A stretch of 64,000 nt of DNA, taken from the NCBI RefSeq assembly GCF_014303735.1, contig NZ_CP060296.1, positions 3,741,501 to 3,805,500 on the forward strand, in the 5' to 3' direction. Source of the DNA: Variovorax sp. PAMC28562 (GTDB lineage Bacteria > Pseudomonadota > Gammaproteobacteria > Burkholderiales > Burkholderiaceae_C). Position 1 is the first letter of the stretch, and each line of letters starts with the position of its first letter. Position numbers and translations under genes: made by a program. Shown here one piece after another: positions 41,511 to 62,769 of the stretch. The notes beneath the pieces were generated by a model that saw only the letters and a program-made list of their open reading frames with translations, searched no databases and was not told where the DNA came from.

Positions 41511-43142
41511 TCAAAGCATGAGCGCCTTGAAGCTCTGCAGCGCCACCTTGGGATGCACTGCCCCGTGATAGATCGCAGGAATCTCGTTCTTCAGGTGCAG
41601 CAGCCCGTACACCGCATGCATCGCGCTGCGCACCGAATACTCGACAGTGAACACCACATCTTCCGGAATCTCCACATACTGGCCGAGCACCGCGAAATTG
41701 CGGGTGCCACCGGGAACGACAGCGGGCCGATCCGTCGGCTCGCGACGCTCGAACTGACTCGTGATGTAAGGCAGCATCACCGGGATCACGGTGCTGGTGC
41801 GACGCACTTCGTCGAGGATGTCTTCGAAGCCCAACTGGTGCATCAACTCGGTCAGGATTTCTTCACCGCTGCTCTCGGCCATCGACTTGTCGACGTAGTC
41901 GCCCTTCTTGTCGATGAAGAGCCCATAGCCCCATATCGTGTAGACGCCCTCGGGTTGACCCGCGAAGTGCGGGGCGTGCGGCACGACGATCGACATCAAC
42001 CACGGCGAGTCCTTGAACGTCATGAGGCCGCCCGTGCCCGGCGCGTTGCCTGAGTACGCTTCGATGCGCTTCACCAGCAAGGGGCTTCGCAGCGTGACGG
42101 TGAAAGACTCCCACTTGCTCTCGTCGACGTTGCCGTTGAACGTCTCCGGTCGGCCCAGGGTCGGCACCTTGCGCGCGAGGTTTTCCCAAAGCGTCCAGCC
42201 GCCGTCGCGCTTGTCTCGCAACAGTGCCGGGGCGTGATCGTTGTCGCCGATGCGGGCGTCGGCGGTCATCGAACCGAGCGTGGCAAAGACCAGATCGTCG
42301 GACCCGACCTGATGCGAGAAGAACTCGTCGCCGCGTTTGCAATGGATGGCAGTGACGCGCAAGCCGTCGGTGTTGCGCGCGACCTCGGTCATCTCTGCGA
42401 AGTCTTCGAAATCCATGTCCACGACCTTGGTTCCGAACTGGAACGCCACGCCTTGCCCCGCGAGCCAGTCCTGCATCGGCCGGACGATCGAGTCGTACTG
42501 ATTCAAGGCTGTGCGACGAACGCCGGCCAGCGTGTGAATGCGCGGCAGCTCCTGCAGGAAGCGGAGCAAATAGCGTCGCATTTCGACGGCGCTGTGCCAG
42601 TTTTGGAAGGCGAAGGTTGTACGCCACATCGCCCAGAAGTTGGAGTTGAAAAAGTGCTCGGTGAAGCAGTCTTCGATACGCTCGGCGCCGAACATGCGCT
42701 CCGGCGTGGCGAGCAGGCGCAGCACATCGAGGCGGTCGCGCGCATCGAAGCCCAGATCGGCCGCATCGAGGATGCGGTGCTGCCGGTCGATGAGCCGCGC
42801 GTTGGCGTGCGATTGCAAAGCTTCGTTGAAGTCCCACACCGCGTCTTTCAGCGACCCTGCGCCGTGACGGTCCGGCACCGCATCCAGCACATTCCACATG
42901 CAGACATAAGCCTCTTCGGTCCACATGCGGCCGCCGCGCGTCACGTAACCTGCTTTTGCATCGCCTGAACCGTCCAGTGCGCCGCCTGCCACCTGCATCT
43001 CTTCGAAGATGAAGATGTCGGTACCCTGAAATCCGCCATCACGAATCAACAGCACGGCGGCCGACAACGACGCGATGCCGCCGCCAACGAGAAAAGCCCT
43101 GCGCCTGCGGTTCGGGGTCGACATTGAGATGGACGTGTTCAT
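41511..43142 (-). CDS. ohyA: Oleate hydratase (FAD-dependent, MCRA family)
   Basis: 543 residues from the ATG at 43142. N-terminal FAD motif AFLVGGGIASLSAAVLLI, then FEEMQVAGGALDGSG, the hydratase-specific loop RGGRMWTEEAYVCMW and SNFWAMWRTTFAFQNWHSA near 180. SPWLMSIVVPHAPHF near 385 and VWGYGL-like YTIWGYGLFIDKKGDY are further signatures. It adds water to the cis-9 double bond of oleate to give 10-hydroxystearate, often against toxic unsaturated fatty acids. Length fits the shorter, probably monomeric subfamily. ATG at 43166 would add eight residues; neither has a good Shine-Dalgarno. Confidence 0.88.
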   Translation of the reverse strand: MNTSISMSTPNRRRRAFLVGGGIASLSAAVLLIRDGGFQGTDIFIFEEMQVAGGALDGSGDAKAGYVTRGGRMWTEEAYVCMWNVLDAVPDRHGAGSLKDAVWDFNEALQSHANARLIDRQHRILDAADLGFDARDRLDVLRLLATPERMFGAERIEDCFTEHFFNSNFWAMWRTTFAFQNWHSAVEMRRYLLRFLQELPRIHTLAGVRRTALNQYDSIVRPMQDWLAGQGVAFQFGTKVVDMDFEDFAEMTEVARNTDGLRVTAIHCKRGDEFFSHQVGSDDLVFATLGSMTADARIGDNDHAPALLRDKRDGGWTLWENLARKVPTLGRPETFNGNVDESKWESFTVTLRSPLLVKRIEAYSGNAPGTGGLMTFKDSPWLMSIVVPHAPHFAGQPEGVYTIWGYGLFIDKKGDYVDKSMAESSGEEILTELMHQLGFEDILDEVRRTSTVIPVMLPYITSQFERREPTDRPAVVPGGTRNFAVLGQYVEIPEDVVFTVEYSVRSAMHAVYGLLHLKNEIPAIYHGAVHPKVALQSFKALML

Positions 43143-43220
43143 GAAGTTTGAAAAGACCAAGGTCATAGGGTGCGCAACATTGCGCAGTACAGATTGAAAG
43201 CGCCTGCAGCGCGCGAAGGC

Positions 43221-51909: not shown

Positions 51910-52374
51910 ATGAATCAGATCGATCTCACCGCCCTCTCACTCCCCGGCGTGGAAGTCCATGACAGCGGCGTTCACGGACTCGGCGCCTTCGCATCGCAAG
52001 ACTTGCCAGTCGGCACCAAACTGGGCCAGTACGCGGGCCGCCGCTACAGCGCCGAACAGGCCGAGGCGGTGGACTGGGACTCCAGCCTCACCTATCTCTT
52101 CGGCCTCTCGGACGGCACGCTGATCGACGGCGCCGATGGCGGCAACGCGACGCGGCACCTCAACCATGCATGCGAGCCCAACTGCGAGGCGGTCGAGGTC
52201 CAGCGAAAGGGGCGCCGTATCGTGCTCGAAGTGCGCACCATCAAGCCGGTGCGTGCGGGCGACGAACTCTTCATCGACTACGCGCTCACCGTCGATGAGT
52301 CGGAGCCCCGCACGGGCTACCCGTGCTACTGCAAATCGGCGGGGTGCCGCGGCACGCTGCTCGGGCCGGTCTGA
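51910..52374 (+). CDS. SET-domain protein-lysine methyltransferase-like protein
   Basis: 154 residues, a compact SET domain. GVHGLGAFASQDLPVGTKLGQY at the start, RHLNHACEPNCEA near 75 (the pseudoknot NH-x-C-x-PN) and DELFIDYAL near 118. The post-SET zinc motif is CYCKSAGCRGTLLG at the end. AdoMet-dependent lysine methylation of a protein is the expected activity; bacterial targets are mostly unknown. Similar free SET proteins occur across Proteobacteria. The leader holds a hexanucleotide repeat. Convergent with the ABC operon. Confidence 0.88.
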   Translation: MNQIDLTALSLPGVEVHDSGVHGLGAFASQDLPVGTKLGQYAGRRYSAEQAEAVDWDSSLTYLFGLSDGTLIDGADGGNATRHLNHACEPNCEAVEVQRKGRRIVLEVRTIKPVRAGDELFIDYALTVDESEPRTGYPCYCKSAGCRGTLLGPV

Positions 52375-52415: not shown

Positions 52416-53975
52416 TCAGTGGATCGCCGCGTACATGATCTTTTCCTGCGTCGCCTCGATCGCCGAAAACTCCGTCACCACCTTGCCCTGCTTGGCGACC
52501 AGGATGCGGTCCGACAACGCCAGCACCTCGGGCAAGTAGGACGAGATCACCACCACAGCCTTGCCGGCGTCGGCCAGCCGGTTGATCTCTGCATGGATCT
52601 CGGCGATGGCGCCCACGTCGACGCCGCGGGTCGGCTCGTCGAAGATGATGATGTCGGGGTCCTGCACCAGCGACTTGGCGATCACCACCTTCTGCTGGTT
52701 GCCGCCGGAGAGTTCGATTACCTTCACGTCCTTGCTGATCGCGCGCACATTCAAGAGCTTGATCCAGTGCTCCCCCACCGCCTTGGCCTTGGCACCCGAC
52801 ACCACGCCGAAAGCGCTGCCGAGCTTTCCCAGCCAGCCCATGTAGATGTTTTGCGAGATCGACATGGTCTCGAAGAAGCCTTCGATCTTTCGGTCTTCGG
52901 TGATGTAGGCAATGCCGTCGCGCACCGCCGATCGCGCGACCTTGTAACGCACCGGCTTGCCGCGCAGCAGCACCTCGCCGCCGTGGAAGAAATCGCGCTT
53001 GATGAGCCCGGCCACCACCTTGAAGGTTTCTGTACGGCCGGCACCGACGAGCCCGAATACGCCGGTAATCTGGCCCGCGAAGACCGACAGCGAGTTGTTC
53101 TTGACCATCGACGCCATGCGCAGATTGCGCACCGACAGCAGGCATTCGCCACGTGGCCGCACCGTCGTCTTCTTCTGGCCATAGAGCGTTTGCGACAGGT
53201 CACGCCCGACCATCGCCTGCACGATGCGCGTGCGGTCGAAATTCTTCTTGTCGTCGGTCACCACGTGATGGCCGTCGCGCAGCACGGTGATGCGGTCGGC
53301 CAGCAGCAGCGCCTCCTCGAGTGCGTGCGAAATGAAGATGATCGAAACGCCGCGCGCTTTCAAGTTGAAGATCAGGTCGAAGAAGTACTTCTTTTCTTCC
53401 GGTGTCAGGCTGGCGGTCGGCTCGTCGAAGATGATGATGCGGGCCTGGTGCAGCACCGCGCGGGCGATCTCCACCATCTGCTTCTTGGCCGCGCCGAGCA
53501 TGCCGACCGTCGCGGTCGGATCGACGTCGAAGTTGAGCGACTGCAGGAACTGCTGCGCCGAGATGTAGACGCCGCGCAGGCGGTTGTAGAAAGCCTCTTG
53601 CCCCAGATAGAGGTTCTGTGCGACCGTCATCGTCGGCACCAGGCTCGTCTCCTGGAACACCATCGCGATGCCGCGATGCCGCGCTTCGAGTGGCGTGCGC
53701 AACTCGACCGGTTGCCCTTCCACCAGCATCTGCCCGCCCGACAGCGGCACCACGCCGGCCATCACCTTGGTCAGCGTCGACTTGCCGGCGCCGTTCTCGC
53801 CGAGCAGCGCATGGATCTCGCCCCGCCGCAGCGTGAACGACACGTCTTCGATGGCGGGTACGCCGGCATATTTCTTGGTGGCGGCGCGCAGTTCGAGAAC
53901 GATGTCTTCGGCGGCGGAAGGTGCGGATGCGGCGGCCACAGCGGCAGCCTCTGCAGCGTTGATCAAGTCGGTCAT
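52416..53975 (-). CDS. CUT2-type sugar ABC transporter ATPase (two ABC domains)
   Basis: 519 residues. Domain 1 (about 28-260): Walker A GENGAGKST, Walker B IIIFDEPTAS; its signature is degenerate (MLGAAKKQM instead of LSxGQ). Domain 2 (about 285-519): Walker A GLVGAGRTE without Lys, as normal for RbsA-like proteins, signature LSGGNQQKV, Walker B IIIFDEPTRG. It powers the importer formed by the two permeases upstream. Last gene of the operon, overlapping the propeller gene by ATGA. An Ala-rich N-terminus (about 8-22) is extra. Confidence 0.9.
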   Translation of the reverse strand: MTDLINAAEAAAVAAASAPSAAEDIVLELRAATKKYAGVPAIEDVSFTLRRGEIHALLGENGAGKSTLTKVMAGVVPLSGGQMLVEGQPVELRTPLEARHRGIAMVFQETSLVPTMTVAQNLYLGQEAFYNRLRGVYISAQQFLQSLNFDVDPTATVGMLGAAKKQMVEIARAVLHQARIIIFDEPTASLTPEEKKYFFDLIFNLKARGVSIIFISHALEEALLLADRITVLRDGHHVVTDDKKNFDRTRIVQAMVGRDLSQTLYGQKKTTVRPRGECLLSVRNLRMASMVKNNSLSVFAGQITGVFGLVGAGRTETFKVVAGLIKRDFFHGGEVLLRGKPVRYKVARSAVRDGIAYITEDRKIEGFFETMSISQNIYMGWLGKLGSAFGVVSGAKAKAVGEHWIKLLNVRAISKDVKVIELSGGNQQKVVIAKSLVQDPDIIIFDEPTRGVDVGAIAEIHAEINRLADAGKAVVVISSYLPEVLALSDRILVAKQGKVVTEFSAIEATQEKIMYAAIH

Positions 53976-55090
53976 TGCATCGCTCCTGGGCCGGTCAACG
54001 GCACGCGCAGCAATCGCCCGCTGCCTCTCGATGCAGCGTACAGCGCACCGCCGAACTCGACGACTGCGGTGATGCCGTGGTGCTGGCCGTCGACCTGGCT
54101 GTGCAGCGACTCTGTGGTGTGCCCCTGTGCATCGACGTGCAGCACCAGCCCGTAAGAGCGCGGCGGCGCCCACGGCTTGAGCACGCCCATCTGCTTGACG
54201 CCGGCGCCCTGCAACGGCTCCAGGTAACTGGTGCCGGATCGCAGCGACGGCGCGACCCAGTAGCGCGGGTCGACGCTTTCGAGCATGCGCGTGCGGTAGG
54301 CGTCTTCACGCAGCACGAACTCGACGAGCTGCGTGCGGCAGACGAAGCACGTCAGCCAGAAGCCGCCGCGTGCGGCAGGCGCCATGCGCGAGGGGTAGCC
54401 AGGCAGGTCGGCGAGCACGGCCTGCGCCCCGGCTTGCGCGACGCGGTGCCGCCAGCTCTCGCTGTAGAGCACGCTGGCCGCGCGCCCTTGCGGCAACACG
54501 CCGTACGCATGTTGCAGCCGGCTTGCCAGGAGTTCGGCGCTGCCTGATCCGCCCTCCGTGCCGACGTGCCAGCGTCCGACGCGGCCGGTTTGGCCTTTTT
54601 CCATCAGGTCGCGGCACCAGTCGTCCGGGTCGTGCCGGGTCGATCCATCGGTGAAGAGAACGCTGTCGTCGGCTTCGAACGAGAGCGCATTCACACTGTT
54701 CAACGGCACATCGCCGAGACGATCGAGCACCGCGATCTCGGTCAGGCTTGTCGCTCCTTTGCGGGCGACCGAAAGCAACACAATCCGCTTTCCGGCCAGC
54801 GCCACGGCCAGCAGATTCGCGGACCGTACGGCAAGTGCGGTGATGTTCGCATCGAAGCGCTGCACCTCGACCATGCGACCGGCTTCGAGCACGTACAGCA
54901 CTGGGCCGGCGCTCGCAAAAAAAGCGCGGCCGTCAGTGGCAAGGTCATCGATGTCGGGCAGCGTCGCGACCACCTCGGCATCGTCGAGCGCCCGATTGGG
55001 CTTGAGCGCGCCGTCCATGACCGGCACGGTGATGGCGGCGTCGCCGCGGCCCAGCACGCGATCGCTGAATTGACGGATGGTGTCGAACAT
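53972..55090 (-). CDS. SMP-30/strictosidine-synthase-like beta-propeller protein
   Basis: 372 residues. Propeller blades are suggested by repeated strand pairs, with GDVPLNSVNALSFEADDSVLF near 135, DLPGYPSRMAPAARGGFWL near 235 and VLYSESWRHRVAQA. The same phrases (DLPGYP, GFWL/NYWLA, xxESWRxxV/AETWGCCV) occur in the fused domain of the adjacent permease gene, so the two are paralogues. SMP-30 relatives are lactonases or esterases with a metal-bound active site. No signal peptide, so cytosolic. It overlaps the permease stop by one base (TGATG). Confidence 0.75.
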   Translation of the reverse strand: MFDTIRQFSDRVLGRGDAAITVPVMDGALKPNRALDDAEVVATLPDIDDLATDGRAFFASAGPVLYVLEAGRMVEVQRFDANITALAVRSANLLAVALAGKRIVLLSVARKGATSLTEIAVLDRLGDVPLNSVNALSFEADDSVLFTDGSTRHDPDDWCRDLMEKGQTGRVGRWHVGTEGGSGSAELLASRLQHAYGVLPQGRAASVLYSESWRHRVAQAGAQAVLADLPGYPSRMAPAARGGFWLTCFVCRTQLVEFVLREDAYRTRMLESVDPRYWVAPSLRSGTSYLEPLQGAGVKQMGVLKPWAPPRSYGLVLHVDAQGHTTESLHSQVDGQHHGITAVVEFGGALYAASRGSGRLLRVPLTGPGAMQ

Positions 55091-57204
55091 CAGGCAGCCC
55101 TCCAGCGGCGCTCGTACTGGTTGAAGTTGGGGTCGGCCCCGGGCAGCGTGTAGCGGCCGATGCGATTGTTGGAAATGCCGCCGAGGTAAAGATGGCCCTT
55201 GTGCTCGCGCATCGAAGTGATCATGGGATGGTTCTCGCCGCCCAGGTCCCACAGCGTTTCGAGCACCTCGCCGGCCTCGCTGAACTTGAGCACGCAGCCG
55301 GTGTTGATGTTGGGAAAAAGCCATTCGTCGACTGGCAGCCGCGACGCCATGCGCTTGCGAAAGCCCGGCATGCGCATGGCAAGGTCGTACGCCGGGGAAC
55401 GCATGCCGACCAGCGCCAGCCAGTAGTTGCCGTCGGATGCCAGGTTGATGTTGTCGGGGTAGCCTGGCAGGTCGGCAATGACCATCTCGACTTGCCCGCT
55501 CTTCGGTCCGTCGAACCAGTAGCGCTTGACGCAGCAGCCCCAGGTTTCTGCGAACAGGATCGACTGCCCGTCGCTCGCGATGGCGATGCCGTTGGGGAAC
55601 TTGAGGTCGCGCAACACCGTGCGCGTCGAGTTGTCGCGTGGGTCGTAGCACACGATGCGACCGTTGCCACGCGCCTCCAGACCATCGACCGGCCACTCGT
55701 CCATTTCGTAGCGCACCGTGGCTTCGCTGAAGAACACGCGGCCGTCATCGGCGATGTCGAGATCGTCGGCCAGCCGCAGCCGGCTGTCGTCGTTGATCGA
55801 GCTCCAACTGCGGTTTGTTTCGTCGGTGACGCGCTCGACCTTTTGCTGTGGCGTAACGCGATACAAGCCCATGCCGCCGACGCACACATAGAGGTTGTCT
55901 TCGCGGTCGAAAGCCATGCCGAGCGGCTGGCCGCCGATGTGCGCGAAGATTTCCATGCGCTCGTAGTCAGGCGAGAAGAAACGGATGATGTCGCCGTGCC
56001 GGGAGCCCGCGTAGAGGTTGTCTTCGCGGTCGAGGATGACGTCTTCGGGCGCCTCGATGCGTCCGAGTCCAATCAGCGTCACGTCACGCAGCTTGTTGTT
56101 CAGCGCATAGCGGCCTGCGGCCTCCTCGCTGCAGTCCGGCGCGTCGCCGAGCTTGTGATAAGTCGGGCTGATGTAGACCTTGCTGATGATGCGCTGTCGG
56201 TTCTTCAGCCAGCGCACATCGATCACCGCAGCCAGCACCAGGATGGCCGCCAGCACCATGCGGATGACGCCGCCAGGCGCCGACATCGAGGTCAGCCCGT
56301 TGGTAATCAGCAGCACCAGTAGCGTGCCGACCATCGCTTTGGTGACCGAGCCGCGACCGCCGCCCACGCTGATGCCGCCGAGCACCGCCGCCGTCAGCAC
56401 CAGAACTTCCATGCCGACGCCGATGTCGGCGCCCGCCGTGGCGAGTCTCGATGCGAAGAAGCAACCGCCCGCGCCGGTAAGAATGCCGCAGCCCACATAG
56501 CACAGCGCCACCGTGCGCCGCACCGCGATGCCACCGTTGTAGGCCGACCGGCGCGAGCCACCAATGGCCATGATGTGCCAGCCGAGGCGCAGCCGGGTCA
56601 GCAGCAAGTGCCCGCCGATGGCCGCGACGGCATAGACCCAAGCCACCGTCGGCAGCCCGAGAAAAGTGCCGTCGCCCAGAAAATTCCAGACTTCCGAATC
56701 GGGCAGATTGCCGGCGATCTCGGTCGAATACTGCATGCTCAGAATCTCATACACCGACCTGAAGATGATCAGCGTGATGAGCGTGGTGAGAAACGCACGA
56801 AGCCGCAGGTAGCCGATCAGCAAGCCGTTGATGGCGCCCAGACAGGCGCCGCACAGCAGCGTGCCGAGGACCGCGAAAGCCACCGGCCACTTGAGCACGT
56901 GCATCAGCATGAGCGCGCAAAAATTGGTCAGCGCGAACATCGACCCGACCGACAGATCGATGCCGCCGACGATCATTACCAGCGCCATGCCCAGCACGAT
57001 CAAGCCGATTTCACCGGCCTGTCGCAAGGTGTCGGCCAGCACGCCCGGCGTGTAGAAGTTGCCGATCAATCGCCCGGAGGCGATGACGACGACGATGAGC
57101 AGCAGCACCGGGATGGCGGTCTCGGTCCATCGCTTGGACAGGATCTCGCCGACCCAGTGGTCGGGCCAATAGCGGTAGCGCAGCCGCGTCAGTGTTTCAT
57201 TCAT
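55090..57204 (-). CDS. ABC permease fused to an SMP-30/gluconolactonase-like domain
   Basis: 704 residues. The first 340 form a CUT2 permease: about 9 helices, MIVGGIDLSVGSMFALTNF near 85 and AVLGGISVGGGRGSVTKAMVGTLL near 280 are the RbsC/BPD_transp_2 signatures. After a short basic stretch (RWLKNRQRIISKVY) a cytosolic beta-propeller begins near 385 with EAPEDVILDREDNLYAGSRHGDI. It continues with LADDLDIADDGRVFFSEATVRY and PNGIAIASDGQSILFAETW. The join lies in one uninterrupted frame. Import and lactone or ester hydrolysis at the membrane may be coupled. Stop overlaps the next gene. Confidence 0.88.
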   Translation of the reverse strand: MNETLTRLRYRYWPDHWVGEILSKRWTETAIPVLLLIVVVIASGRLIGNFYTPGVLADTLRQAGEIGLIVLGMALVMIVGGIDLSVGSMFALTNFCALMLMHVLKWPVAFAVLGTLLCGACLGAINGLLIGYLRLRAFLTTLITLIIFRSVYEILSMQYSTEIAGNLPDSEVWNFLGDGTFLGLPTVAWVYAVAAIGGHLLLTRLRLGWHIMAIGGSRRSAYNGGIAVRRTVALCYVGCGILTGAGGCFFASRLATAGADIGVGMEVLVLTAAVLGGISVGGGRGSVTKAMVGTLLVLLITNGLTSMSAPGGVIRMVLAAILVLAAVIDVRWLKNRQRIISKVYISPTYHKLGDAPDCSEEAAGRYALNNKLRDVTLIGLGRIEAPEDVILDREDNLYAGSRHGDIIRFFSPDYERMEIFAHIGGQPLGMAFDREDNLYVCVGGMGLYRVTPQQKVERVTDETNRSWSSINDDSRLRLADDLDIADDGRVFFSEATVRYEMDEWPVDGLEARGNGRIVCYDPRDNSTRTVLRDLKFPNGIAIASDGQSILFAETWGCCVKRYWFDGPKSGQVEMVIADLPGYPDNINLASDGNYWLALVGMRSPAYDLAMRMPGFRKRMASRLPVDEWLFPNINTGCVLKFSEAGEVLETLWDLGGENHPMITSMREHKGHLYLGGISNNRIGRYTLPGADPNFNQYERRWRAA

Positions 57205-57226
57205 GGCAAGAACGCAGCCGGTCGCG

Positions 57227-58240
57227 TTACTTGCTCGCAGTCAGTTTCCAGCAGGTGCCTTCGGCACTCGCGTTGTCCTTGGTGATGGGCACCAGCGTGG
57301 TGTAGATGTTCTGTTTGGCGGAGCCGGGCTTGATGCCGTTCTGCACCAGCCACTTGATCATCGCGGCCATGTTGCTGGCCTGGGTCGGCACGTCGTAGCT
57401 GATGTCGGAATCGAAAGCGCCCGACTTCACCTGGTCGCAGGCGCCCTTCTGCTCACCACCGCCCGACGTCGCGAGGAACACCTTGCCGGTGAGACCCGCT
57501 TCCTTGACCGCGGCAGCAGTGCCGATGTCCATGCCGTCCCAAAATCCGATGATGCCGCACAGGTCGGGGTTTTGCTTCAGCACGGTCTGCGTGAGCGCCT
57601 TGGCCTTGGCGGCGTCCCAGTCGGCCGCCTGGTTCGAGACGACCTTGATCTGCGGATTCTTGGCAAGCACGTTCTCCACGCCCTTCAGCGTGTAGGCGCT
57701 GGTGGCTGCTGTCGGCGCGCCCTGCACGATGGCGATCTTGTTCGACTTGCCCTTGCAAGCGGCCACGACGGACTCGGCATTGCGCTCGCCGACATCGACC
57801 CAGTCGGCACCCACGAACACGGTCGACGGCTGCACCGAGCGCATGTTGATCTGCACCACGTAGATGCCTTCGCTCTCGGCCTTGGCGATCAGTTTGGCGT
57901 AGGTCGCGACGTCGGGGTTATGGATGACGATAACGGCCGGCTTCTCGGCGATGAGCGCGGTGAAAGCCTGCGCGCCGGAGTTGGTGTTCCAGTTGGGGTC
58001 GCGCGCGACGACCTTCATGCCGGAAGGCTCGAGCTCCTTCTTCAGTCCGTTGTACCAGCCCTGCGCCAGGTCGAAGCCCATCGCCACCGGGATGAAGCCG
58101 ACGGTCTTGCCATCAAGCGATTTCTTGTAGCCGTCACGGAACGGCTCGTCCAGCCCCTTGCCCTGCGCCAGCGCGGTTTGCGCGGCGGCGAGGCCGAGGG
58201 TCAGGCAAGCGACAGTCGCGATTTTTTGTCCGAGATGCAT
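57227..58240 (-). CDS. Sugar-type ABC periplasmic binding protein (CUT2)
   Basis: 337 residues. Signal peptide ending ALAQ, then KTVGFIPVAMGFDLAQGWYNG, a periplasmic-binding type-2-like (RbsB class) fold. VIVIHNPDVATYAKLIAKAE near 105 and GIIGFWDGMDIGTAAAVKEAG near 230 are the usual hinge and ligand segments. Cys residues near 158, 225, 270 and 330 may pair as disulphides in the periplasm. It delivers the unknown substrate to the two permeases. It lies second among the transporter genes, after a 91-nt gap with a hairpin. Confidence 0.88.
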   Translation of the reverse strand: MHLGQKIATVACLTLGLAAAQTALAQGKGLDEPFRDGYKKSLDGKTVGFIPVAMGFDLAQGWYNGLKKELEPSGMKVVARDPNWNTNSGAQAFTALIAEKPAVIVIHNPDVATYAKLIAKAESEGIYVVQINMRSVQPSTVFVGADWVDVGERNAESVVAACKGKSNKIAIVQGAPTAATSAYTLKGVENVLAKNPQIKVVSNQAADWDAAKAKALTQTVLKQNPDLCGIIGFWDGMDIGTAAAVKEAGLTGKVFLATSGGGEQKGACDQVKSGAFDSDISYDVPTQASNMAAMIKWLVQNGIKPGSAKQNIYTTLVPITKDNASAEGTCWKLTASK

Positions 58241-58271
58241 GCTGTGTCTCCTTCATTTGTATTTAAGAACA

Positions 58272-58292
58272 GCGCCAATGGATGCCTGGCGC
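58272..58292. promoter_or_regulatory. Hairpin in the 91-nt gap between permease and binding-protein genes
   Basis: GCGCCA / TGGCGC, 6-bp stem with a 9-nt loop, 32 bp ahead of the binding-protein start. It may stabilise or partly terminate the mRNA so that the binding protein is made in different amount from the permeases. Inference from position only. Confidence 0.4.
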
Positions 58293-58331
58293 GGGGCACT
58301 AACGGAACTTGAGAAAAGCAATTGGTCGAGG

Positions 58332-59303
58332 TCAGATGTCGCCCTGCTGGGCGGTCTCCTCGTTGCGCGGATTGAAGGCCGAGTCGACCAGGATGGCGAC
58401 CAGCAGCACCACGCCCTTGACGATGTTCTGTACCGAATAGGAGATGTCGAGGATCGTCATGCCATTCAGCATGGTTCCGATGAGCAGCGTGCCGATGATC
58501 ACATTGAGCACACCACCGCGGCCGCCGGAAAGTCCGATGCCGCCCAGCACCACCACCAGCACCACGTCGTAGATCATGGTCGAGTTGAAGATGCGCGTCG
58601 GCATGCTGTTGACCGAAGCCGCCATCACGATGCCGGCGAAGACCCCGATCAAAGCGGCCATGACGTACTGCAGCACGACGATCGGTCGGGTCGGCAAGCC
58701 GGTAGCGCGCGCGCCGAAAGGGTTATCGCCGATGGCGTAGATGAAGGCGCCCGCGCGCAGCCGTTTCAAAAACAGTGCGAGCCCCGCCGCAGCGATGCCG
58801 AACATGACGACCGGCATCGGCAGGCCGGCGAACGTGCCACGCCCCATCCAGGCGATCGAGTCCATATTGCTCGGCCATTGCACCACTTCGAGTTGAAAGA
58901 AGAACGCCTGGCCCAACCCCGCGAGAAACAAGCCCGATGCCAGCGTGGTGAAGAGCGACGGCACTTCGGCATACGCGATGAGCCAGCCGTTGACCAGCCC
59001 GAACGCCAGCGACAACCCGACGGCCAGTGCGCAGGCGGCAGGCAAGGTCATGCCGTTTTGCATCAGCTGCAGCAGCAGCCCCGACGGCACCGCGAGCGCC
59101 GCGATCATCGAGATATCGATGCCACGTCCGATCACGACCACCGACATACCGAGCCCCAGGATGCCGAGGATGGCGACGTTCTGCAGCAGCGTGAGCAGGT
59201 TGTCGACCTGCGCGAAGCCGGGCAACAGCAGCGCGAAGCCGAGGAACATCAGCACGAACAGTACGAAGACGATGCTCTGCTGCGAGATGTGGATTTTTTT
59301 CAT
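58332..59303 (-). CDS. CUT2-type ABC transporter permease
   Basis: 323 residues, about 9-10 helices. FVLFVLMFLGFALLLPGF at the start, IGRGIDISMIAALAVPSGL near 60 (the IDLSVG-like signature) and VVVLGGIGLSGGRGGVLNVIIGTLL near 265. It pairs with the fused permease to form the membrane channel. It begins 25 nt after the TetR-ligase gene, so both share one transcript. Confidence 0.88.
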   Translation of the reverse strand: MKKIHISQQSIVFVLFVLMFLGFALLLPGFAQVDNLLTLLQNVAILGILGLGMSVVVIGRGIDISMIAALAVPSGLLLQLMQNGMTLPAACALAVGLSLAFGLVNGWLIAYAEVPSLFTTLASGLFLAGLGQAFFFQLEVVQWPSNMDSIAWMGRGTFAGLPMPVVMFGIAAAGLALFLKRLRAGAFIYAIGDNPFGARATGLPTRPIVVLQYVMAALIGVFAGIVMAASVNSMPTRIFNSTMIYDVVLVVVLGGIGLSGGRGGVLNVIIGTLLIGTMLNGMTILDISYSVQNIVKGVVLLVAILVDSAFNPRNEETAQQGDI

Positions 59304-59328
59304 CGATGGCTTTGTGACGAGTTCCGGC

Positions 59329-61608
59329 TCAGGTCATGGCGACATGCAACGAATCGCGCAGCGCACGCTTCATGACCTTGCCGTTCAGGTTGCGTGGCAG
59401 CGGCTCGGTGCCGATGGTCCAGGTTTCCGGCACGGCGTAGTCGGAAAGGCGCTCGGTGCTGAAAGCCTGCAGTGCCGCGGCCTGTGTCGACGCATCCAGT
59501 TGCCGCACGCAAACGAAGGCATGCACGCGCTCGCCGAGCACGGCGCACGGCACGCCGACCAGAGCGACCTCGATCACCTCCGGGTGCTCGGTGATCGTGT
59601 TCTCGGCAGCAGCGCAAAAGATCTTGTAGCCACCACGGTTGATGACGTCCTTCTTGCGATCGAGGATGCGCACGAAGCCTTCGGCATCCATGCTGCCGAT
59701 GTCGCCGGAGCGCCAGTAGCCGCCCTTGAATTCGCTGGCGGTGGCGGCCTCGTTGCGCCAGTAGCCCTGCGACACCATCGGGCCGGCGATCCATATCTCG
59801 CCGGCCTCGCCGCGTGGCACTTCATTGCCGTCGTCATCGACGATGCTGATCTCGCCACACGCCACAGCCAGGCCGACACTGTCTCGATGCTGCGATGTCT
59901 GGCCGGGCGGCATGATGGTCGCCGGTGAACAGGTCTCGGTCGACCCGTAGGCGTTCATCAGCGTGAGGTTGGGCAGGCGCTCGGCCATCGCCTCGATGCT
60001 GGCGGAAGGCATGGGCGCGCCGCCGAAGGCGCCGATGCGCCAGTGATGCAGGTCGTGCTCCTGCAGGTTTGGCAGCAACAGGCACAGGTTGTACATGGCC
60101 GGCACCATGATCGTGTGAGTCATGCGCTCTTCGGACGCGAGGCGCACGAACTCGCTGGACTTGAAGGGCGGCATGAGGACGACGCAGCCCTGCGCATGGA
60201 GCATGGTGTACAGCTCGGCCACGAGACCAGTGACATGGCTCAGCGGCACCGCGACCACGCTGCGGTCGTCAGGCCCGAGTCCCATGGCCTGCACGAAGTG
60301 CATCACCGAATGCACGATGTTGAGGTGACTCAGCATCGCGCCCTTCGGCTTGCCGGTGGTGCCCGAGGTGTAGAGCAACACGGCCAGATCGTCTTCGGCG
60401 CTGTCGTGGGGTTGCACGAGCGGCTGCGCCTGCATGAGATCGCTGAAGAGCTCGAACCCTTCCCTGGTTCCACCGACCACGAAGCGGTGCTGCAGTGACC
60501 GCAGGGCCACCGGTGCCGGCACGAATTCAGCGAGGTGCCGGCTGCACACCAGCGCGATCGCCTCTGCATCGTTGAGCGAATATTCGATCTCGGCGGCACG
60601 GGCTCGCGAGCTGATGGGCACGGCCACCGCGCCCAACCATGCACAGGCATAGACGACGATCACGAACTCGGCGCTGTTGTCCATGAACAGCGCCACTCGG
60701 TCGCCCGGGCCGATGCCTCTTTGCTTGAGGCCGGCCGCGCACTTGCAGACTGCGTGATGCAACCCGCGCCAGCTGAGCCGCAGCGGCCCGATGACCAACG
60801 CCTCGGCATCGGGGCGTGCCGCGAGCACGTCGGCCAGCAACTGCGCCACATGCACGCGGCGCGGCGTGAAGCAGCGCACCACGCGGTTGCCAAAATGAAC
60901 TTCGCGACGCATCTCCGACATGGTTTCTCCCCAGGGGCCCGGTTGCGCGCGCGACGGCACCGCAGCGCTGTTCTGCGACGGCGCGCTCAGCACGCCCCGC
61001 ATGAGCATTTCGATGCAATGGCGCACCGCGTCTTCGAGGTTGTGGGCAGCGCGGTTCTCTGGCCGGTACCAACGGCCCACGCCGCTCAATGCGCCAACCA
61101 CCGTGTAGGCCGCCATAGCTGCATCGCCGGCGGCGATCCAGCCTTCGGCCATGCCGGCCTCGATCAGCGTGCGGAACTCGACATCGATCTCGCCCTTGAG
61201 CGCACGCAGCTCGCGTCGGCGCGGCTCCGACAGCGGGTCTTCGCCGATGCGGATCACACAAAGGCCGAAGTCGCTGGTCACGATGCCGGCGTAGTTTTCC
61301 ATCGCGGCGCGGAGCCGCTCGCGACCCGCGAGGCCGCGCTCGGTCGCTTCGTCGATGCAGGCCCGCAGCGCACCCAGACCGCGGCGCACGCATTCGAAGA
61401 GGATCTCTTCCTTGTTCGCGACGTAGTGATACAGGGTTGGCTTGGTGACACCGAGGCTTTGCGCGATGTCGTCGAGCGAGGTGCCCTGAAAGCCGCGGTG
61501 CGTGAACAGGCGTGCTGCCGCGGTGAGCACGGCGTCGCGCTTGGCGCTGCGTGGCTGCTGCCTTTCACGGTCGGTCCGCCAAGGCGAATCCGCGAGCTCA
61601 GTACCCAT
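59329..61608 (-). CDS. TetR regulator fused to an acyl-CoA ligase (AMP-binding enzyme)
   Basis: 759 residues in one frame. Residues about 22-70 are a TetR HTH (RDAVLTAAARLFTHRGFQGT, then IAQSLGVTKPTLYHYVANKEE), followed by a helical ligand domain to about 205. From 229 (MSEMRREVHFGNR) begins a complete adenylating enzyme: P-loop YTSGTTGKPKGAMLS, NAYGSTETC, WRSGDIG, RILDRKKDVINRGGYKI and the C-terminal PRNLNGKVMKRAL lysine. No stop separates the parts. ATG at 61608 follows AGGAG. A GGGGAG precedes the internal ATG at 60921, so the ligase may also be made alone. First gene of the ABC operon, behind a TetR-type palindrome. Confidence 0.85.
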   Translation of the reverse strand: MGTELADSPWRTDRERQQPRSAKRDAVLTAAARLFTHRGFQGTSLDDIAQSLGVTKPTLYHYVANKEEILFECVRRGLGALRACIDEATERGLAGRERLRAAMENYAGIVTSDFGLCVIRIGEDPLSEPRRRELRALKGEIDVEFRTLIEAGMAEGWIAAGDAAMAAYTVVGALSGVGRWYRPENRAAHNLEDAVRHCIEMLMRGVLSAPSQNSAAVPSRAQPGPWGETMSEMRREVHFGNRVVRCFTPRRVHVAQLLADVLAARPDAEALVIGPLRLSWRGLHHAVCKCAAGLKQRGIGPGDRVALFMDNSAEFVIVVYACAWLGAVAVPISSRARAAEIEYSLNDAEAIALVCSRHLAEFVPAPVALRSLQHRFVVGGTREGFELFSDLMQAQPLVQPHDSAEDDLAVLLYTSGTTGKPKGAMLSHLNIVHSVMHFVQAMGLGPDDRSVVAVPLSHVTGLVAELYTMLHAQGCVVLMPPFKSSEFVRLASEERMTHTIMVPAMYNLCLLLPNLQEHDLHHWRIGAFGGAPMPSASIEAMAERLPNLTLMNAYGSTETCSPATIMPPGQTSQHRDSVGLAVACGEISIVDDDGNEVPRGEAGEIWIAGPMVSQGYWRNEAATASEFKGGYWRSGDIGSMDAEGFVRILDRKKDVINRGGYKIFCAAAENTITEHPEVIEVALVGVPCAVLGERVHAFVCVRQLDASTQAAALQAFSTERLSDYAVPETWTIGTEPLPRNLNGKVMKRALRDSLHVAMT

Positions 61609-61676
61609 GCGACTCCTCGTCGATCTGAAGCCATGGATGCGGTCGACCAACCCGAGGCGCCCTCGAAGATACGAGG

Positions 61677-61690
61677 TTACCGGGCGGTAA
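61677..61690. promoter_or_regulatory. TetR-type operator candidate
   Basis: TTACC-GGGC-GGTAA, perfect 5-bp arms around a self-complementary-like centre. The form is typical of TetR-family operators (ACCGnnCGGT core). It lies 69 bp upstream of the TetR-ligase start, where autoregulation of the whole operon is expected. Confidence 0.65.
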
Positions 61691-61824: not shown

Positions 61825-62769
61825 TTAGCGTGCGTCGCGTCGCGCCAGCAGCACGTTGCCGCCGGTGGTGTTGAACGAAATCGTCGGTGCGCTGAAGTCG
61901 CTCAACGGCGCGCCCAAGCCGATCTCGCCACTGCCATGCAGCACGCACTCTTGCCGGCGCAAGGCGATCTCGCCGCTGGCACCGGCGGTACCGTGAAAAC
62001 GCACCCAGGTGCCGTAGGTGCTGACATCGACCAGCACGCAACTGCCCTGCCGCGCCTCGATGCGCGCATGCAGCCGCGAGACGCGCGGGTCGTTGACGAC
62101 GAACTGCGCATCGTCGACACGTCCCAAATGAATCGGCAACTCCGCTGCACGGAACATCGAGCGCACGTCGAGCCAGGCCAGCTCGATCTGGCCGAAGGTC
62201 GAGTCGGGCGCCTTTTGCGGCGCCAGCGATGCCGGCATCGTCAGGAACTCCGAAACCTCTTCCTGCCAGTCGACGCGATGGACGATCGCCATCTCGTTGC
62301 GGCCGCGAATGTTGATGGGGCCCAGATTGCGATGTCGAACGCTGCCGTCGTGCAGCTGCTCGATCACCGAATCGGTCGCCCATATCTGGCCCGGGCCAGC
62401 CAGGTCGCTCAGGCGCGAAGCGAGGTTGACGGCATCGCCGTAGCAATCACCGTCGACCTCGACGATTTCTCCGCTCGCCACGCCGATCTGCAGGTCCATG
62501 CGCAACGGCACCGGCCAGACTGACAACCGCTTCTGGTGATTGCGCTGCATCTCCAGCACGGCCGCAGTGGCAGCCGGCCCGCTCTGAAATGTCGCGAAGA
62601 CGCCATCGCCTAACGATTTGACGACGCGCCCGCCGTGGGATTCGCAAACGCCGCCGATCCACTGAATCAATCGCGTGACAGTTTCCGTCGCTCGCGCGTT
62701 TCCCATGGCCTCGAAGACCCGCGTGCTTCCGGTCAGGTCCGCAAAGACGACGGTGGTTTGAATGCCCAT
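61825..62769 (-). CDS. Class III adenylate/guanylate cyclase with C-terminal FHA domain
   Basis: 314 residues. Cyclase domain (about 1-165): metal Asp in VVFADLTGSTRVF, second region VVKSLGDGVFATFQ and GDCYGDAVNLASRLSDLAGPGQIW. FHA domain (about 205-300): IHLGRVDDAQFVVNDPRVSRLHARIE keeps the G-R, S-R-x-H phosphothreonine-binding residues. Soluble. It could link Ser/Thr phosphorylation to cyclic nucleotide synthesis. No kinase or phosphatase gene lies nearby. It has the single-domain bacterial form, active as a dimer. Confidence 0.88.
   Translation of the reverse strand: MGIQTTVVFADLTGSTRVFEAMGNARATETVTRLIQWIGGVCESHGGRVVKSLGDGVFATFQSGPAATAAVLEMQRNHQKRLSVWPVPLRMDLQIGVASGEIVEVDGDCYGDAVNLASRLSDLAGPGQIWATDSVIEQLHDGSVRHRNLGPINIRGRNEMAIVHRVDWQEEVSEFLTMPASLAPQKAPDSTFGQIELAWLDVRSMFRAAELPIHLGRVDDAQFVVNDPRVSRLHARIEARQGSCVLVDVSTYGTWVRFHGTAGASGEIALRRQECVLHGSGEIGLGAPLSDFSAPTISFNTTGGNVLLARRDAR

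Follow-up and report, generated by a model that had tools for sequence, protein, structure and literature searches.

An operon of six genes, located at 52416-61608 on the minus strand of a 64,000-nucleotide stretch of DNA from Variovorax sp. PAMC28562 (contig NZ_CP060296.1, positions 3,741,501 to 3,805,500; hereafter the window), encodes a new form of CUT2 importer. In this ATP-binding cassette (ABC) transporter, one permease is fused to a strictosidine-synthase-like propeller that is probably catalytic, what looks like a degenerate second propeller accompanies it, and the first gene of the operon joins a TetR-family regulator to an AMP-forming acid-coenzyme A (CoA) ligase. The component proteins already have database entries, with the general names SMP-30/gluconolactonase/LRE protein and sugar ABC transporter, and no account of the operon or of a permease-propeller fusion was found among the titles and abstract beginnings listed by searches of an open-access library. 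We propose that the operon takes up a hydroxy acid that can form a lactone, opens the ring, and converts the acid to its CoA ester, a mechanism to which we give slightly less than an even chance. In the window's lineage, the most likely substrate would be a 4-hydroxy acid or its gamma-lactone.

Two Fused Proteins in a CUT2 Operon

In order of transcription, the six consecutive genes encode the regulator-ligase fusion (TetR-ligase), an RbsC-type permease, a periplasmic substrate-binding protein, the permease-propeller fusion (here called PermSMP), the second propeller (SMP2), and an RbsA-type ATPase. The TetR-ligase gene (59329..61608) specifies 759 residues, and within this single frame Pfam recognizes TetR_N, TetR_C_24, AMP-binding (312.8 bits), and AMP-binding_C; the regulator part lies at about 60991-61527 and the ligase part at about 59377-60825. 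The latter carries the P-loop YTSGTTGKPKG at residue 413 and the C-terminal lysine motif NGK at residue 742, as expected of an acid-CoA ligase, and fatty-acyl, feruloyl, and malonyl-CoA ligases are among its best matches of solved structure. PermSMP (55090..57204, 704 residues) likewise unites BPD_transp_2 with SSL_N, Str_synth, and SGL in one frame, with the permease part at about 56230-57039 and the propeller part at about 55093-56115. Judged from the sequences, both fusions are genuine. Indeed, among the 120 homologues of the first gene that were listed (3516 were found), 118 have TetR_N, TetR_C_24, and the ligase domains in one protein, and the remaining two are devoid of TetR_N only.

Arrangements that look like unfused states also exist. 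In locus L158 (genome G704), homologous TetR and ligase genes are adjacent and separate, and an enoyl-CoA-hydratase-like gene and the gene for the first core permease come after them; in L138, a separate TetR gene adjoins a different ligase. In the ligase tree, one weakly supported branch (84/53) has all 15 full-length fused ligases on the same side, which is consistent with a single fusion event; one row labeled LIVsbp (L016_0) is in fact a piece of a fused protein cut at a contig edge and adds one false change.

Pfam matches for the remaining parts are those of a CUT2 importer, namely BPD_transp_2 permeases, a sugar-type periplasmic binding protein, and a double ATPase. For the 323-residue permease (58332..59303), RbsC is the best NCBIfam model, with a score under its cut-off. 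The binding protein (57227..58240, 337 residues) belongs to Peripla_BP_4; no sugar-specific NCBIfam model matched it at its cut-off, and its solved relatives are distant and indicate no ligand. The ATPase (52416..53975, 519 residues) shows two ABC_tran stretches, with Walker A at residue 59, LSGG at residue 422, and IIFDEP at residues 181 and 443.

The original prediction, made from the letters of the window, had the operon extending over 52416..61690 with several overlaps of 1-4 nucleotides. The end at 52416 stands. At the other end, an ATG at 61608, preceded by GAGGAGTCGC, is the likely first start, preferred over 61650 or 61690. From the first gene to the last, the spacings are 25, 91, 22, -1, and -4 nucleotides, so that overlaps do occur, at two of the five junctions. 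No sigma-70-type promoter turned up in a pattern scan, which gave terminator-like sites at nearly the level of shuffled sequence (7 vs. 5.2). Hence, the case for co-transcription is built on the spacing and on the conservation of the overlaps (see below).

Both propellers had been predicted to be SMP-30 lactonase-like. One is indeed borne by a permease, and by sequence both are better described as strictosidine-synthase-like. The SGL match is the weaker one on the PermSMP propeller and is absent from SMP2 (53972..55090, 372 residues), whose Str_synth match lies slightly below the cut-off (24.6 bits vs. 25). The nearest solved relatives of the PermSMP propeller in sequence are TGW6 (8kg3) and strictosidine synthases. 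With the AlphaFold model of PermSMP (pLDDT 84.6, pTM 0.61), Foldseek retrieves strictosidine synthase (TMt 0.81), TGW6, DFPase, and the RPA3624 lactonase, and the model of SMP2 (pLDDT 88.7, pTM 0.89) matches strictosidine synthase, TGW6, paraoxonase, and RPA3624.

The two propellers differ at the metal site. For TGW6, the calcium-chelating positions are given as E59, N167, N226, and N272 (PMC10958001). They correspond in PermSMP to E387, D480, N538, and N585, the last three placed by alignment to TGW6 (numbering offset 28) and E387 by position only, and these are conserved in 36, 35, 36, and 36 of 36 sequences, respectively. In SMP2, only 2 of 43 sequences have Asn at residue 196, and all 43 have Arg at residue 235; the other two positions are mostly polar, with Asn at residue 134 in 30 of 43 and Asp/Glu at residue 48, placed by position, in 38 of 43. 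Since the ligand positions are kept in PermSMP and two are lost in SMP2, the fused propeller is predicted to be the enzyme, probably a hydrolase and possibly a lactonase, and SMP2 its partner, probably degenerate rather than a second lactonase. The fused propeller would be cytoplasmic because of the topology of RbsC-type permeases, which we take to place the C-terminal part of PermSMP on that side of the membrane. SMP2 has no signal peptide, as judged by reading its start only.

Conservation of the Core and Its Probable Link to CoA Activation

The last five genes form a conserved core. The order permease, binding protein, PermSMP, SMP2, ATPase is complete in 47 of 66 GTDB loci, in line with the tight gene order first predicted from the window; the other 19 were left unsorted, and several of them are cut by contig ends. 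Of the 47 complete loci, 40 have a 4-nucleotide overlap between SMP2 and ATPase, and 43 have one of 1, 4, or 19 nucleotides between PermSMP and SMP2. Gaps and starts in relatives were taken from gene calls of our own, in which most genes of some loci (for example L080, L091, L092, L097, and L131) are missing. Loci found again in genomes carrying a G handle (for example L146/L014, L140/L064, L145/L058, L144/L026, and L136/L073) are counted once among the 66. The PermSMP match is nearly full-length in 63 of the 66, and the hosts are alpha-, beta-, and gammaproteobacteria. One of the three partial matches is in a locus titled Mycobacteriaceae (L072), which groups with proteobacterial rows in the ligase tree and may be mis-binned. 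PermSMP was also matched over at least 80% of its length in 15 plasmid records; three of these are unannotated, and the core order is seen in 11 of the 12 annotated loci, the twelfth being cut by the end of its record.

The distribution is nonetheless sparse. PermSMP occurs in 17 of 399 genomes drawn from the family and in none of the four others among them that belong to the window's genus, so that the core unit is patchy. When 369 genomes were drawn evenly from the class, the window's own copy was the only one matched at E 1e-150. The PermSMP tree (42 rows) comprises a clade of 27 that includes the window, a second clade of 13, and two rows outside both. The original prediction had suggested looking for co-occurrence of the fused permease with the fused ligase, and this was found: a full-length TetR-ligase is present in five of the 399 family genomes and lies beside PermSMP in all five.

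The link between the core and CoA activation extends beyond the fusion. A PermSMP gene could be called in 64 of the 66 GTDB loci. In these, ligases make up 31 of 292 genes at most three genes from the core, as compared with 5 of 271 genes further off (p = 1.7e-5, ignoring kinship). Of these 31 ligases, 23 resemble that of the window and eight are of other types, five of a kind found in L037, L048, L057, L063, and L068 and three of the L011 kind, two of the latter being only 28-34% identical. Two further ligase types are found in L138 and L078. Where three genes are available on both sides of the core (35 loci), a ligase lies within them in 18 and some acyl-CoA gene in 21.

On a Paraburkholderia plasmid (L080, 3750-8475), the region upstream of the core carries genes for a CoA transferase, a MaoC-type dehydratase, a CoA ester lyase, a MaoC dehydratase, and a CoA transferase, a set that resembles the one for itaconate degradation.

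Candidate Substrates and Proposed Mechanism

Two groups of neighbors hint at the type of acid. The first concerns 4-hydroxy acids. Two studies describe the phosphorylation of 4-hydroxyacyl-CoAs by LvaA/LvaC and ACAD10/11 and their subsequent entry into beta-oxidation, and the 4-hydroxy acids used there were made from gamma-lactones by ring opening (PMC11342911, PMC12440821). The search with the window's ligase found 26 unfused matches (47-54% identity). Among 17 contexts of such unfused relatives that were read, a LIV-type binding-protein marker is present in nine and an APH kinase of the 4-hydroxyacyl-CoA type in five, in one of them in pieces; the 12 sequences from which the APH model was built are among its later matches, and its scores are therefore not independent. 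As for the five closest unfused relatives, the kinase directly adjoins three, one (G704) lies beside the core, and the last (G747) shows neither. On a Sulfitobacter plasmid, genes for an APH kinase, a 157-residue protein, a ligase, an ACAD11-type enzyme, and a DUF7064/7065 protein are located upstream of the core, and the ACAD11-type enzyme scores 425 bits to ACAD11, the first match outside that group scoring 139. The clearest locus is that of genome G765 (L059/L196), where a single strand carries a TetR-ligase (66% identity), the five core genes, five LIV importer genes, a ligase (55%), an APH kinase, and an ACAD10/11-type dehydrogenase 51% identical to the Sulfitobacter enzyme. The window's genome itself, a single contig of 4.69 Mb, has two APH-ACAD11-type pairs (L181 and L182), whose ACADs are 56 and 57% identical to that of Sulfitobacter.

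The second group concerns mevalonate. In Shinella HZN7, Alcanivorax S71-1-4, and Variovorax WDL1, all of the second PermSMP clade, the core has a degradative 3-hydroxy-3-methylglutaryl-CoA (HMG-CoA) reductase as its neighbor. The Alcanivorax enzyme scores 418 bits with TIGR00532 (cut-off 260), that of Variovorax WDL1 is 74% identical to it, and both loci also carry a CaiB transferase and an enoyl-CoA hydratase. Mevalonate is the best reading for the substrate in this part of the sister lineage. As mevalonate forms a delta-lactone, the two groups of clues would agree on an acid that lactonizes, and the differing neighbors across core loci suggest that substrates probably differ between sublineages.

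Two side observations may be added. The best PF00368 match of the family draw is an HMG-CoA reductase of non-degradative type in L142 (G458:C231, 9016-10185, minus strand), adjoining a 171-residue gene that is phasin-like by eye and a dehydrogenase. Downstream of the core ATPase, L137 and L138 carry a DSBA-fold gene (by Pfam for that of L138). They also carry there a CaiB CoA-transferase, 62-69% identical to the Alcanivorax one beside HMG-CoA reductase.

Under the proposed mechanism, the imported compound would be a small lactone-forming hydroxycarboxylic acid, taken up as the acid, the lactone, or both. The binding protein would hand it to the permease pair, with import driven by the RbsA-type ATPase. 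The propeller of PermSMP would act as a calcium-dependent hydrolase opening the lactone on entry, and SMP2, translationally coupled to it, would be a non-catalytic partner. The ligase half of TetR-ligase would then form the CoA ester, and the TetR half would regulate the operon, probably in response to the acid or its CoA ester. For the window's lineage, the most likely product would be a 4-hydroxyacyl-CoA, which the APH-type kinase and the ACAD10/11-type dehydrogenase encoded elsewhere in the genome would feed into beta-oxidation. The import, opening, and CoA-ester model of the original prediction is kept in outline and is partly supported, with the ligase enrichment, the kept metal-ligand positions, and the acyl-CoA enzymes of several loci in its favor; the second of its two lactonase-like propellers is probably not a lactonase, and the activity of the first is a prediction.

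Several observations weigh against this mechanism. The APH kinase is missing from 12 of the 17 contexts of unfused ligase relatives. None of the six genes or their neighbors in the window is an APH kinase or ACAD10/11-type gene, and both APH-ACAD pairs of the genome are far from the operon. The kinase of L138, used as a query, had no match in the window's genome and matches in only 2 of the 17 PermSMP genomes. In L015, L020, L062, and L064, the ACAD beside TetR-ligase belongs to a sister type, only 36-38% identical to the ACAD11-type enzyme. In loci of the Bradyrhizobium/Rhodopseudomonas type, a ligase lies at most three genes away in only 4 of 22, some of them cut by contig ends. No acyl-CoA enzyme was found within three genes of the core in 8 of the 12 annotated plasmid loci, where dehydrogenases, carboxymuconolactone decarboxylase, aminotransferase, or sugar-type genes are found instead. 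Finally, TGW6 showed no calcium, which the TGW6 report ties to its single acidic ligand (PMC10958001); the PermSMP propeller has two acidic ligand positions.

Three other explanations were weighed. The imported compound could be an ester or conjugate of an aromatic or fatty acid, with the propeller acting as an esterase or TGW6-like conjugate hydrolase and the ligase activating the freed acid. TGW6 is described as an indole-3-acetic acid (IAA)-glucose hydrolase (PMC10958001), the solved matches of the ligase would suit such acids, and a ring-hydroxylating dioxygenase is found nearby in a Celeribacter relative. However, the kinase/ACAD10-11 and HMG-CoA reductase neighbors indicate aliphatic hydroxy acids, and no recurring aromatic pathway gene was seen in the regions read, which were not searched systematically; we regard this explanation as rather unlikely. 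A sugar or sugar-lactone importer, with the ligase as a passenger, would account for the RbsABC-like transport parts and for a Pantoea plasmid relative surrounded by dihydroxyacetone-kinase, transketolase, and aldehyde dehydrogenase genes. It is improbable, given the lack of any sugar-specific NCBIfam match at cut-off, the several ligase types, CoA-transferases, and HMG-CoA reductase adjoining the core, and the fused ligase found only beside the core (5/5). That the whole family, window included, imports mevalonate or mevalonolactone, with HMG-CoA reductase or ligase then yielding HMG-CoA, has the three reductase-linked loci in its favor and is the least probable of all: these three rows all belong to the other main clade of the PermSMP tree, the window's genome has no PF00368 match (5 of 14 control genomes do), the reductase (46 genomes) and PermSMP share only 2 of the 399 family genomes, which is chance level and on different contigs in both, and mevalonolactone opens rapidly in water unaided, according to a review (PMC13064465). 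Mevalonate was accordingly rejected as the substrate in the window's lineage.

The proposal of lactone opening and CoA activation can be extended to the family as a whole. These systems may be hydrolytic-trapping importers, with a permease-borne cytoplasmic calcium lactonase and a pseudo-enzyme propeller, in which lactones are opened on entry and cannot leave. Sublineages would serve different acids (4-hydroxy acids/gamma-lactones, mevalonolactone), and one lineage would couple supply to gene control via TetR-ligase. This generalization is possible and, on the whole, doubtful.

Genomic Setting and Comparison With Known Systems

The closest named relatives of the window's proteins come from Variovorax. 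The genes flanking the operon look unrelated to it. Immediately upstream, a fusion of an adenylate/guanylate cyclase catalytic domain with an FHA domain is encoded at 61825-62769 (minus strand); a small SET-domain protein of 154 residues (51910-52374, plus strand) is convergent with the 3' end of the operon, and a phosphoketolase gene lies downstream on the opposite strand. About 9 kb from the operon, an MCRA-family gene is found at 41511-43166 on the minus strand (PF06100, 622.7 bits). Members of this family are known as oleate hydratases, and shortening of the hydroxy fatty acids that they form can give 4-hydroxy acids; a functional link of this gene to the operon would be speculation.

If the proposed mechanism is correct, it would give a function to proteins so far named only SMP-30/gluconolactonase/LRE protein and sugar ABC transporter, and would tie lactone uptake to bacterial catabolism of 4-hydroxy acids and mevalonate. 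The operon would also offer a clear example of an importer-fused hydrolase with a degenerate partner, and one of a transcription factor fused to an enzyme of its own pathway. It would, moreover, call for caution in labeling these CUT2 systems sugar importers.

Among known systems, the permeases, binding protein, and double ATPase match CUT2 importers of the RbsABC, AraGH, and LsrACD type. In contrast to these, one permease of the window operon bears a strictosidine-synthase-like propeller to which a second propeller is coupled, and many core loci adjoin CoA ligases or other acyl-CoA genes instead of sugar kinases. Both propellers have the fold of the SMP-30, DFPase, paraoxonase, and strictosidine-synthase-like proteins, and that of PermSMP also shares their ligand positions; unlike known six-bladed propellers, it is fused to a permease, and SMP2 is devoid of two of the four positions. 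With the lva (levulinate/4-hydroxyvalerate) pathway of Pseudomonas putida and mammalian ACAD10/11, the operon has an acid-CoA ligase in common, as well as, in some relatives, an APH kinase and an ACAD10/11-type enzyme, whereas the window operon itself has an ABC importer and propellers and neither kinase nor dehydrogenase. Finally, three sister-lineage loci have the HMG-CoA reductase of the degradative mevalonate pathway (mvaA) beside the core, an enzyme that is absent from the window's genome.

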